DNA from: a virus
IMG/VR virus record: IMGVR_UViG_3300047550_002151
Span: 1-21,872 of that record
DNA length: 21,872 bases
Strand: one strand, 5' to 3'
The position numbers were made by a program, and so were the translations under genes. Of this stretch, positions 1 through 13,774 are shown piece after piece. A model generated the notes under the pieces. The model had not been told where the DNA came from and did not search any database. It was given only the letters and a program-made list of their open reading frames with translations. Within the stretch, counting starts at the first letter, position 1. Every line of letters starts with the position of its first letter.

Positions 1-325
1 TCATCGCTTCGGCTTTTAGATCCTGGTACTGTCCGATTGTTTCGAATTCTAAGTTTTTTGGAATCTTGTAACCGATGCAGGTTTCAGGTATTTCCAGGTT
101 CATTTCGGTCCGTAGAAATCCCAAAAGCTCAATCAGGCTTTCTAAATTGTAAATCTTAGCCTTACGCAAAGTTTCCTCGTCTATTTCGGTGAATAGTGAG
201 ATAATCTTTACTATGTCATCTCCTGCTTCAGCAAGTTTTAAGAATTGTCCGAAGGTTACTTCCTTCCATTTGGTAGGGATTTCCTTCTCTACCTTTACGC
301 CTTGTAGTTCTATTTGTATTTTCAT
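1..325 (-). CDS. Putative tail assembly chaperone (5' part, cut by window edge)
   Basis: An open frame of 108 codons starts at the ATG at 323-325 and is still open at base 1, so the C-terminus is missing. The N-terminal part reads like the small tail-assembly chaperones of siphoviruses and myoviruses. It has a short beta-like start (MKIQIELQG), then a Trp-containing segment 'KWKEVTFGQFLKL', a helix ending 'IISLFTEIDEETLR', a second helical stretch, and 'ETIGQYQDLKAEAM' at the edge. These chaperones coat the tape-measure protein during tail assembly, often with a frameshifted longer form, which cannot be checked here. It lies just downstream of the large terminase in the same direction, 96 bases away. 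The reading frame is certain; the family is a judgement from pattern and is only moderately sure. Confidence 0.55.
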   Translation of the reverse strand, partial: MKIQIELQGVKVEKEIPTKWKEVTFGQFLKLAEAGDDIVKIISLFTEIDEETLRKAKIYNLESLIELLGFLRTEMNLEIPETCIGYKIPKNLEFETIGQYQDLKAEAM

Positions 326-343
326 AAGTGATTATTATATTTG
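313..343 (+). promoter_or_regulatory. Bacteroidetes-type promoter, rightward
   Basis: TTTG at 313-316, a 19-base spacer, then TATATTTG at 336-343 match the known Bacteroidetes consensus (-33 TTTG, -7 TAnnTTTG) without a mismatch. The expected start is near 350. It points away from the gene at 1-325, whose first codons contain the -33 box, and toward the terminator at 381-418. No protein-coding frame lies between them. Confidence 0.6.
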
Positions 344-349
344 CGTCAG

Positions 350-418
350 ATAGATTTTATTCGATCTATTAAACTCAACGAAAGAGCCTCAAATCTTTAC
401 CCGGATAGAGGCTTTTTT
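350..418 (+). ncRNA. Candidate small RNA of about 70 nt
   Basis: A consensus promoter (313-343) is followed after about 65 bases by an intrinsic terminator on the same strand, with no ATG between them. The predicted RNA starts with an inverted repeat, ATAGAT (350-355) with ATCTAT (364-369). An A-rich single-stranded stretch and the terminator hairpin follow. All flanking genes are on the other strand. Its 5' end lies across the untranslated leader upstream of the 1-325 gene, so it could pair with that leader. It could also be only a promoter whose transcript is stopped early. The unit is inferred from signals; no known RNA family is recognised. Confidence 0.42.
381..418 (+). terminator. Intrinsic terminator, best on plus strand
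   Basis: GCCTC (386-390) and GAGGC (408-412) form a 5-bp stem closing a 17-base loop, and a run of six T follows on the plus strand (413-418, then GTTTT). On the minus strand the stem is followed only by the weaker TCTTTCGTT, so it may partly stop leftward transcription leaving the terminase gene as well. Confidence 0.55.
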
Positions 419-421
419 GTT

Positions 422-1612
422 TTATCTGAATCCCATTAATACCGGAGCGGTGTATTGGTTTTTAAAACTGATTGCGCCATATCTGAAACTATCTACGTTA
501 TCGTCAAACATTTTAACAGGCTCGTCTAATATCTCCCCTGTCGGTTTTTGCTTCCACTTATAAGACCGCATTTCTTTCTGCAAATCTATTGATTCCCTAT
601 GAATGTGTATTTTATGGCTCCGGATGAAATCAATTCCTTCCTTTACTGACTTGTTCGCAGGATAGGCGTTTACTCCGTTTAGGATCAGGTCCTGGATAAT
701 CTCCGGTCTGGCTGTGTCGCAATAGACTAACGAATTACCTACTATCTGCTTTACCTTTTGGATTAGTTCGCTTGTGGTTAAGTGGGACTGATAAAGCATC
801 TGTTCAGCATATAGGTTATTTTCTACCCTTGTGACCTTTACAAGGGCGTTAGGGTGATTAAATCCGAAGTCAAGGCCATAGCAGTAATCTCCTTCCACTC
901 TGTCGTATAACTCAAAGGAATGGTAAATCGTGTTCTGTGTTGTTCCCCTTTCTCCAAGTCCATAAACCTTCCATAGATTTGGATCTGCATCCTTTAAACT
1001 TTCAATCTGTTTCTTTTGAATCTCGGGCAAAAATCTATTATCCAAGTAAGTTGACTGAATAAACTCTGTTTCATTTAAAGGTAGTATTCTTTGATATATC
1101 CAATGGTCTTCATCTGCTGGGTTATAATCCATAAACACAGCCTTTTTAGTTCTCATATTTAATTGTTCAAATGTTTCCTTTTGAATCAAATTAGCCTCGT
1201 TTATGAACAGTATATCCCTTCCCGGACCACGAACCTTTAAAGAATTATCAACAGAAAAAAATTCAATGTAAGACCCATTAGGAAAGCGATATAAAGACTC
1301 TGTAAGGCTATGAGCATTTGGGTCATATATTGGGTCGATAATTTCCATAAAGTCTCTTATAACGCCTTTACGCAAATGTGGGAAGGCTATAGAAGTAACA
1401 GATATTGAAACCTTTTGAGTTAATGCAAAATGAATCAATAAACCTATTAAAGAATAAGTTTTACCTGATCTTGATCCACCTTGATTAACAATAAATCTTT
1501 TTCCGTTATTATATGCTTTGAAAGATTCTTTTGAAACCTTGGTTTTTTTTAATCTAAATTGGGTCTTCCCAGATGATTTCAATTCCTCCACTATGCTCGG
1601 TTTTCTGTTCAA
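422..1612 (-). CDS. terL: Terminase large subunit
   Basis: This is the ATP-driven motor and nuclease that cuts and packages phage DNA into proheads at the portal. The 396 residues show the usual two domains. The ATPase domain has Walker A GGSRSGKT (45-52), Walker B ILFINEA (134-140) and a coupling-type motif MDYNPAD (161-167). The RNase H-like nuclease domain has GLDFGF (246-251), YCDTA (297-301) and [10 protein letters not shown] (370-379). It resembles Terminase_3/PBSX-type proteins. It follows the small subunit and overlaps it by 59 bases. There is no ATG between the upstream in-frame stop and Walker A. The possible starts are TTG at 1612, GTG at 1591 and TTG at 1582. I keep 1612, but the start is uncertain and translation is probably coupled to the small-subunit gene. 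Confidence 0.93.
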
Positions 1613-4105: not shown

Positions 4106-4159
4106 AAAAAAAGCCGGAAGCCTGCGCCACATCTACCTGATGCTTAACCTCCGGCCTTT
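4106..4159 (-). terminator. Strong intrinsic terminator with long loop
   Basis: Read on the minus strand, GCCGGAGG (4155-4148) pairs with CTTCCGGC (4120-4113) with one G-T wobble. AAA upstream extends the stem past a bulged G, and seven T follow (4112-4106). The 27-base loop contains a second hairpin, GCATC with GATGT. It separates the NinG end of the early train from the packaging block. Confidence 0.75.
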
Positions 4160-8687: not shown

Positions 8688-8979
8688 TGAAATAATATTT
8701 TAAATGTTCAGATTGTTCTTCGATAATAGCCCTATACTTTGCTCCTTGTTCGTATGTTTGGAAGTCTTTGGCTATCTCTTTTAATATTCCGTGAATGTAT
8801 TCTATCGTTTCACTTGCTACTTCGTTAATCTCGGCATCTGTAATTAGTAGCTTTTTAACTTCATCGTTCTGCTTTTCTTTTGCTAACTTTTCAACGGATC
8901 GCTTTTGTACAGTCAGAAGGCTTTTGAGTTTGCCTGCCTTATTAGGCCAGAGCTGTGTAAGTTCGTAGTATTTGTTCAT
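8665..8979 (-). CDS. Unknown helical protein between initiator and ATPase
   Basis: 104 residues, strongly helical and rich in Lys and Glu, with a likely coiled coil over much of its length (for example 'KLAKEKQNDEVKKLL' and 'EEQSEHLKYYFNELRRKN'). The ATG overlaps the initiator stop as ATGA (8976-8979) and the end overlaps the ATPase gene by 23 bases. Its place between a replication initiator and a DnaB-like ATPase suggests a helicase loader or adaptor, but there is no direct sequence support for this. Confidence 0.6.
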   Translation of the reverse strand: MNKYYELTQLWPNKAGKLKSLLTVQKRSVEKLAKEKQNDEVKKLLITDAEINEVASETIEYIHGILKEIAKDFQTYEQGAKYRAIIEEQSEHLKYYFNELRRKN

Positions 8980-10592: not shown

Positions 10593-11260
10593 AGTAGTTT
10601 TAAATATTCTTGTTTTAGTTTTTCTGCTTTTTCAATCTTTTCTATTATTTGGTCGTGTACTTTTTGATCTTTTGGACAGCTTAGGATTATCATTCGTTCC
10701 TCTAAAGGAATATCTGAGAAATCATGATCTATCGCACTCGTATAAGTGTCTACAAATTGCTCAGCCAGGTAATAACATAAGAACGCTGAATCGCATTTGG
10801 TCGCAAGCATCTGCATTTGAAGCTGATAGAAATACTTGCTTTCAATATCTGCGCCTTCTTTGTAGCTTATTTTCAAATCAAAGAAAGTTCCAGGCTGAGG
10901 ACATTTTATATCACACACAGCAATAATATCTAATCCGTCATAAAGTACTCCGTCTGGTGATGCTCCGGAGTATTCGTTAATCGGAAAGAATTGTTTTGAT
11001 ATTAATGACCAATCATTCTTAGTGATCAGTTTAAACTTTTCAAATGCTTCTGCTTCGGTTATGATTCCGTGTTCCATTGCTTTGTTTACAATGTTCTCAC
11101 GATAGCCATATTTCTGTTCGATAGCTTTAGATTTGATATAACCTTTTGCGGTTTCGGAAAAGTTACCTGCGTCTTTATTAGCTTTTGTTTTTGGTTCTAC
11201 AAATAGCTTGTAAATCTCTGATGCTGTAAAGCGTCCGATTCTTTGTTCTAAAAAATTCAT
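10589..11260 (-). CDS. YqaJ-like / lambda-exo-like 5'-3' exonuclease
   Basis: 223 residues with the pattern of the YqaJ viral recombinase family. An N-terminal 'RIGRFTASEIYKLF' is followed by a central SPDGVL (101-106), then DIKCP (117-121) giving the PD-(D/E)xK active site (Asp103, Asp117, Lys119), and a helix 'FYQLQMQML' (144-152). It chews 5' ends of double-stranded DNA to leave single strands for the annealing protein encoded two genes upstream. ATGA overlaps join it to genes on both sides. Exonuclease plus Erf is the classical two-component phage recombination pair. Confidence 0.88.
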   Translation of the reverse strand: MNFLEQRIGRFTASEIYKLFVEPKTKANKDAGNFSETAKGYIKSKAIEQKYGYRENIVNKAMEHGIITEAEAFEKFKLITKNDWSLISKQFFPINEYSGASPDGVLYDGLDIIAVCDIKCPQPGTFFDLKISYKEGADIESKYFYQLQMQMLATKCDSAFLCYYLAEQFVDTYTSAIDHDFSDIPLEERMIILSCPKDQKVHDQIIEKIEKAEKLKQEYLKLL

Positions 11261-12891: not shown

Positions 12892-12991
12892 TTTTTATAT
12901 CGTTTTCTATTTCTGAATATGTTTTGTGAGTAGGTATCGGAGTGAACTTAACTAAGAACCATCCGACAATAAAAAAGATAATTAGTATCAT
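12875..12991 (-). CDS. 38-residue single-helix membrane peptide
   Basis: An open frame from the ATG at 12989-12991 to TGA at 12875-12877. Residues 2-15 are hydrophobic (ILIIFFIVGWFLVKF), followed by a short polar, acidic tail. Its ATG overlaps the stop of the first early gene as ATGA, and its end overlaps the next start by 17 bases, so it fills what would otherwise be a 96-base gap. Function unknown; probably a small inner-membrane peptide. Confidence 0.5.
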   Translation of the reverse strand: MILIIFFIVGWFLVKFTPIPTHKTYSEIENDIKNENRN

Positions 12992-13182
12992 ATTGATTTG
13001 ATTTCAGTTCCATCCATTTCAAAAACTTGATATCCCATAAATAAATACTTTGCAATCTTTTGATTCTTGTCAAAGTTTTCACCTTGTCTACTTAAGATTG
13101 TCAATTTGTCTTTTTCGCCTTGACGATAAACTTGGAATTCTCTTTTGAAGTTTCCTGTCTGAGTTTTGATTTGTGTTTTCAT
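12988..13182 (-). CDS. First gene of the early train, unknown
   Basis: 64 residues, not recognised. It is basic and beta-like (GNFKREFQVYRQGEKDKLTIL, then IAKYLFMGYQVFEMDGTEI). It starts at the ATG at 13180-13182, about 24 bases downstream of a promoter -7 box, so it would be the first protein made from the early leftward transcript. First genes of early operons often act on the host, but nothing in the sequence shows what this one does. Confidence 0.6.
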   Translation of the reverse strand: MKTQIKTQTGNFKREFQVYRQGEKDKLTILSRQGENFDKNQKIAKYLFMGYQVFEMDGTEIKSI

Positions 13183-13205
13183 TTTGTTGTTTGTTTTTGA
13201 TGAGT

Positions 13206-13241
13206 CAAAGTAAAGGCAGATTTCACTTTAAAGCAAATTTA
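13206..13241 (-). promoter_or_regulatory. Probable early leftward promoter
   Basis: On the minus strand TTTG (13237-13234), 20 bases, then TTACTTTG (13213-13206) match the -33/-7 pattern with one mismatch. The TTTG is itself the end of a perfect TAAATTTG (13241-13234), which may serve as an alternative -7 box. The 157-base gap 13183-13339 is very A/T rich and carries a direct repeat TTATAAGCC at 13267-13275 and 13331-13339, the latter touching the rightward ATG. No clear rightward promoter is seen. Confidence 0.5.
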
Positions 13242-13339
13242 TTTTAACTTTTTTTTGAAATATTTTTTATAAGCCTTTTTCGCCTATTTTAGCTTTTTAA
13301 TCCAATATCCAAAAAACGCATTTAAAGCCCTTATAAGCC

Positions 13340-13774
13340 ATGAAAATTTCTGAGTACTTTACCCTTAGTGAGATGGTAAAAACGTCGCAAAAAGCCTCTA
13401 ATGAGCCCACAGAGACTATCGTGTCAAATCTAACCTATTTGGCTAAGAAATTAGACCAGGCAAGGGTAAAACTCGGAGAACCGATTATAATTAATTCAGG
13501 ATACCGAAGTCCGGAAGTCAATAAATTAGTCGGAGGATCAGCAAACAGTCAGCACATGAAAGGACAGGCCGCTGATATGGTCTGTTCTGATAATGCCAAA
13601 CTATTCGGGATTTTAAAGGATATGGACTTCGATGAACTTATATGGGAGTTCGGTACGTTTCCAGGACAGCCGGACTGGGTGCATTGTTCATTTGTAAAGG
13701 GACGAAGCAGAAAAAAAATGATGCGAGCTTTTAAAAAGAACGGAGAAACTAAATACGAAATTATACCACAATGA
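13340..13774 (+). CDS. Peptidase M15 endolysin (D-Ala-D-Ala carboxypeptidase type)
   Basis: 144 residues of the peptidase M15A family, used by phages to cut peptide cross-links in peptidoglycan. It has the N-terminal 'KISEYFTLSEMVKTSQ' repeat-like start, SGYRSPEVN (53-61), the zinc and catalytic region SQHMKGQAAD (70-79, with His72 and Asp79) and the second His in DWVHCSF (112-118, His115). There is no signal peptide, so a holin or other membrane protein must release it. It is one of only two genes read rightward, and its stop overlaps the next start as ATGA (13771-13774). Confidence 0.9.
   Translation: MKISEYFTLSEMVKTSQKASNEPTETIVSNLTYLAKKLDQARVKLGEPIIINSGYRSPEVNKLVGGSANSQHMKGQAADMVCSDNAKLFGILKDMDFDELIWEFGTFPGQPDWVHCSFVKGRSRKKMMRAFKKNGETKYEIIPQ

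Follow-up and report, generated by a model that had tools for sequence, protein, structure and literature searches.

The DNA analyzed in this study, hereafter the window, is a stretch of 21,872 nucleotides from an uncultured Bacteroidota phage (IMG/VR virus record IMGVR_UViG_3300047550_002151). Near its left end, two late genes of a leftward operon, terL, which encodes the large terminase, and the gene that follows it, are separated by a 96-bp insert. The insert is occupied by a unit composed of a promoter-like signal, hairpins and a terminator, which is considered here as a candidate gene for a small antisense RNA (Table 1).

Results

Terminator and hairpins of the insert

The insert carries an intrinsic terminator with a stable G+C-cored stem and a T tract on the same strand. 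Its arms (377-390 and 408-421) enclose a loop of 17 nt, and the T tract TTTTTTGTTTT lies within and beyond the 3' arm. Folding of positions 344-421 gave the terminator -19.9 kcal/mol (z score -5.8) on the plus strand, versus -12.1 kcal/mol (z score -2.4) for the same region on the minus strand, where the T tract is missing. Moreover, when the whole window was scanned for hairpins followed by a T tract, the terminator scored -17.0 kcal/mol against a best value of -14.3 kcal/mol in 20 dinucleotide shuffles searched on both strands; it was the strongest on the plus strand of the window and was exceeded only by a minus-strand terminator at 4112-4156. The terminator is clearly beyond chance and strand-specific. 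A simpler hairpin scan overlooked it because the 17-nt loop was above the limit of that scan. The 5' hairpin (hairpin 1), with a perfect core of ATAGAT-N8-ATCTAT at 350-369, had a folding energy of -6.9 kcal/mol and a z score of -2.0. It was also considered as a recurring repressor operator, and this was rejected because it occurred no more often than expected by chance. No ATG was found on the plus strand of 344-421, so the unit contains no conventional coding frame. No covariance model of Rfam 15 matched the unit at the gathering score, and elsewhere only a chance-level match was obtained. An earlier sequence-based note on this DNA, the original prediction, had proposed a rightward promoter, an inverted repeat without a coding frame and a plus-strand terminator at this locus; all three were recovered, with the end of the terminator moved from 418 to 421.

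Promoter-like signal

The consensus of the sigma-ABfr promoter is TTTG / TAnnTTTG (PMC6847099, PMC7366714), and both boxes were present on the plus strand upstream of hairpin 1, separated by a spacer of 19 nt. The -33 box does lie in the first codons of the downstream gene, as the original prediction had it. In Flavobacterium, transcription starts 4-5 nt past the -7 box (PMC6847099). A predicted +1 placed 4 nt past the -7 box falls at about 348, rather than near 350 as originally proposed, and is one base 5' of hairpin 1. When spacers of 18-22 nt were allowed, the promoter pattern occurred twice in the whole window versus 1.16 occurrences expected by chance; the pattern by itself is weak evidence and is not significant. 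The pattern was found on the plus strand upstream of the terminator in 0.28-0.51% of local dinucleotide shuffles, a post hoc figure. Furthermore, among 179 gene starts of the phage group, an antisense promoter match was seen at one, the near-identical sister copy, and at none of the other 178, which indicated that A-rich leaders before start codons rarely yield such a match. The promoter together with an adjacent orphan terminator is harder to attribute to chance, and these probabilities count as moderate support.

Table 1. Features at the terL junction of the window.
Feature	Position	Strand	Remarks
-33 box TTTG	313-316	+	Within codons 4-5 of the downstream minus-strand gene; identical bases in sister contig (L002/L025)
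-7 box TATATTTG	336-343	+	Fits TAnnTTTG; unchanged in L025
Predicted antisense RNA, ~73 nt	about 348-420	+	From promoter spacing and terminator
5' hairpin (hairpin 1)	349-370	+	8 bp, 6-nt loop; folding
Intrinsic terminator	377-421	+	14-bp A/U-extended GAGCCTC/GAGGC stem and T tract; folding, window scan
96-bp insert, terL to next gene	326-421		Missing in most relatives
terL (large terminase)	422-1612	-	Upstream neighbour in leftward operon; Terminase_3 match
Downstream gene, cut by window edge	2-325	-	Start codon ATG 325-323; 214 aa in sister contig L002; conserved among relatives

Distribution and conservation of the insert

Apart from the window, a single contig (L002/L025) carried a copy of the insert, at 98% identity. 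When viral contigs were scanned for exact sequence from each half of the unit, L025 alone was retrieved, comparison of the unit DNA with 18 virus records including relatives matched only the window and L025, and BLASTN of the unit against phages gave chance matches only. None of the other relatives found carries the unit. Between the two copies, 2 of the 96 bases differed, one in each hairpin loop, and the stems and both promoter boxes were unchanged. In the flanks, 25 of 71 fourfold sites had changed (17/38 over the final third of terL, 8/33 over the downstream gene), a divergence significantly higher than that of the insert (Fisher p = 4.6e-9). In genome contigs, the relatives of terL reached at most 45% identity, so that neither a prophage nor a close host was identified.

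Neighbouring genes and the terL junction in relatives

Both flanking genes run leftward, as had been stated. The original prediction had called the downstream gene tail-chaperone-like, a label that drew no backing from PHROGs or Pfam, neither of which gave a match. In six relatives (L003, L004, L005, L006, L010 and L039), the terL stop codon overlaps the next ATG; L011, L037 and L040 have a gap of a few bases, and L008 and L009 just a short gap. Two further contigs carry inserts of other kinds. At the same junction of L007 (4138-4235, plus strand), there is an unrelated tRNA-like insert of about 98 bp, which was under the default threshold of ARAGORN and was called tRNA-Arg(ccg) at a lowered threshold and Phe(gaa) with the mitochondrial model. 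In L038 (1850-2108, plus strand), an insert of about 258 bp with an open reading frame of 86 aa follows terL; this insert is absent from the near twin L037, and the reading frame had no Pfam match. Because L007, L038 and the window with L025 carry different inserts, the terL junction appears to tolerate small insertions. The possibility that the unit is a degenerate tRNA akin to the L007 insert was rejected, as no tRNA was found in the window and no similarity was visible. L079 has what looked like another antisense terminator (8742-8770), but this was discarded, for it sits within a coding frame.

A second unit after ninG and other regions

A second arrangement of this type lies directly after ninG on the minus strand of the window (4231-4105), where a TAAATTTG promoter-like box is followed by a stretch of about 115 nt and a terminator. 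The gene upstream is NinG (PF05766), and the terminator (4112-4156) is the strongest of the window (-21.2 kcal/mol). Similarly placed units with a related core were seen in the relatives G002, G004, G005 and G006, the core there running approximately from CCC or CGC through a loop with AATA at its end to GGG or GCG, with an A run next. G004 and G005 have an imperfect -7-like box, and their ninG frame extends into the unit. Units directly after ninG with a promoter-like box, about 110-115 nt and a strong terminator were located in L085 (2085-2199, plus strand), L079 (11615-11725, plus strand), L089 (about 11023-11133, plus strand) and L081 (about 6745-6637, minus strand). The core common to the window and these four related contigs is AATAGSG followed by an A run. 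These resemblances were judged by eye and from a five-sequence alignment, in which one stem pair showed a compensatory change; Rfam gave no convincing match to the unit. In phage lambda, the pR'-6S RNA-tR' segment is a late control region, and the position of the unit after ninG resembles it. By analogy, the unit could give rise to a terminated leader RNA of the late genes, similar to 6S, and it is possibly more interesting than the unit at the terL junction.

In L085 (1160-1340, plus strand), a promoter-like box, a leader and a terminator (1275-1311) are followed by a second box, TATCTTTG, and a gene. In the window, the region 13183-13339 separates a leftward gene (12988-13182) from the rightward endolysin gene (13340-13774), has a minus-strand TAAATTTG box at 13241 and is probably a divergent promoter region.

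Discussion

The insert at the terL junction is, with modest confidence, predicted to be a gene for a small antisense RNA. Its anatomy is best read as a short RNA gene on the plus strand, because this would account for an orphan terminator preceded by a suitably spaced promoter of the expected type, for a +1 beside hairpin 1, for the discreteness of the insert and for the low divergence of the sister copy. In B. thetaiotaomicron, moreover, a start site with an intrinsic terminator marks most of the intergenic small RNAs validated by Northern blotting (PMC7366714). According to this model, the host sigma-ABfr RNA polymerase would initiate at about 348, transcribe rightward, in opposition to the late operon, and be released at the terminator, leaving the 3' end of the RNA in the T tract near 420. 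The product would be an RNA of about 73 nt with two hairpins linked by a short A-rich stretch, and its 3' end would fall just ahead of the terL stop codon. The original prediction had the RNA begin across the leader of the downstream gene. Complementarity to that leader does hold, as the RNA would match, base for base, the stretch of intercistronic mRNA that lies about 23 to 95 nt before the downstream start codon; with a start at about 348, it would fall short of the start codon itself and pair with the leader only. Pairing of the RNA with the mRNA may form a duplex that is a likely RNase III target or processing site, and this duplex could separate the expression of the downstream gene from that of terL, or tune one against the other, and so alter the ratio of the two proteins. 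To our knowledge, such control of late genes has not been described for Bacteroidota phages.

Several points weigh against a small RNA gene. The unit consists of predicted signals, of which hairpin 1 is weak taken alone (z about -2) and the promoter match arises about once per window by chance; the local-shuffle and gene-start probabilities of the promoter are post hoc. Furthermore, the unit is present in two near-identical sequences only. Third codon positions up to 60 nt away from the insert are also fairly conserved (5/40 changed), so recombination of the whole block may have contributed to the low divergence of the insert.

The main rival is that the insert is a lone antisense terminator, which would just block antisense transcription before it reaches terL, with a chance promoter match. 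The terminator is indeed the sole part that is strong by itself, and one promoter pattern per window is expected anyway; however, a promoter so close upstream arose in 0.3-0.5% of local shuffles and at 0/178 other gene starts. Moreover, L025 carries same-direction late genes for 11 kb leftward with no rightward gene visible, which leaves antisense transcription without another obvious source, and this explanation was regarded as rather unlikely. It is weaker still to suppose that the leftward late mRNA is where the hairpins function, as a stabilizer of the terL 3' end, a processing site or a weak attenuator that uncouples the translation of both genes. The 96-nt structured leader does stand where most close relatives have an ATGA stop/start overlap, whereas the fold of the minus strand is far weaker than that of the plus strand and has no T tract; an mRNA element was considered improbable. 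Least probable of all is a functionless relic of a small cargo insertion in which the terminator was retained. The unrelated inserts at the same junction in L007 and L038 would be in keeping with such an origin, but both stems are intact and the near-identity of the two copies persists despite the high synonymous divergence of the flanks.

In a wider sense, and only tentatively, since we regard it as a doubtful generalization, the terL junction may serve the phages of this group as a slot for varied small cargo, noncoding or minor, filled here with a putative late-operon antisense RNA that uncouples the packaging gene from the next late gene. Repeated acceptance of small cargo at this junction could be a simple route to gain RNA regulators. 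The presence of the unit in one sister pair and its absence from otherwise similar relatives offer a clean comparison of late-gene expression with and without it. Antisense RNAs have been well studied in a few enterobacterial phages, and a limited literature search found none from Bacteroidota phages.

By analogy, the unit looks like a known kind of element, the small antisense RNA gene of phages P22 and lambda. The sar RNA of P22 is 68-69 nt long; its promoter sits close to where the downstream gene begins, and an intrinsic terminator marks its end. It is a short antisense RNA of this Salmonella phage, complementary to the arc-ant intercistronic mRNA (PMC7968456; references in PMC2629481). 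The unit described here likewise predicts a short antisense RNA in an intercistronic region of a phage operon, in this case from sequence alone; unlike sar, the predicted RNA falls about 23 nt short of the start codon, and the unit lies in a late operon and has a promoter of the sigma-ABfr type. No sequence relation to sar was found. In lambda, the pO-oop-tO unit is antisense to an operon and overlaps the neighbouring gene, covering 52 bases of the cII coding region, and RNase III cleavage of the hybrid has been suggested (PMC5869508). Like OOP, the unit is predicted to be a promoter, RNA and terminator opposing an operon; unlike OOP, it covers the intercistronic region only, and its neighbours are late genes. 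Its own predicted promoter and terminator oppose both neighbours without a coding frame, as in RNAs of the sar and OOP kind, whereas the ribosome-binding site and coding sequence of the downstream gene are left uncovered, the predicted 5' end being at 348 and the ATG at 325-323. The cis-antisense RNAs of the DonS type in Bacteroides are 78-128 nt long and lower the expression of the opposed gene (PMC7366714). Unlike the unit, they are chromosomal rather than phage-encoded and divergent to susC homologues; the likeness lies in a predicted cis-antisense RNA within the same host phylum.
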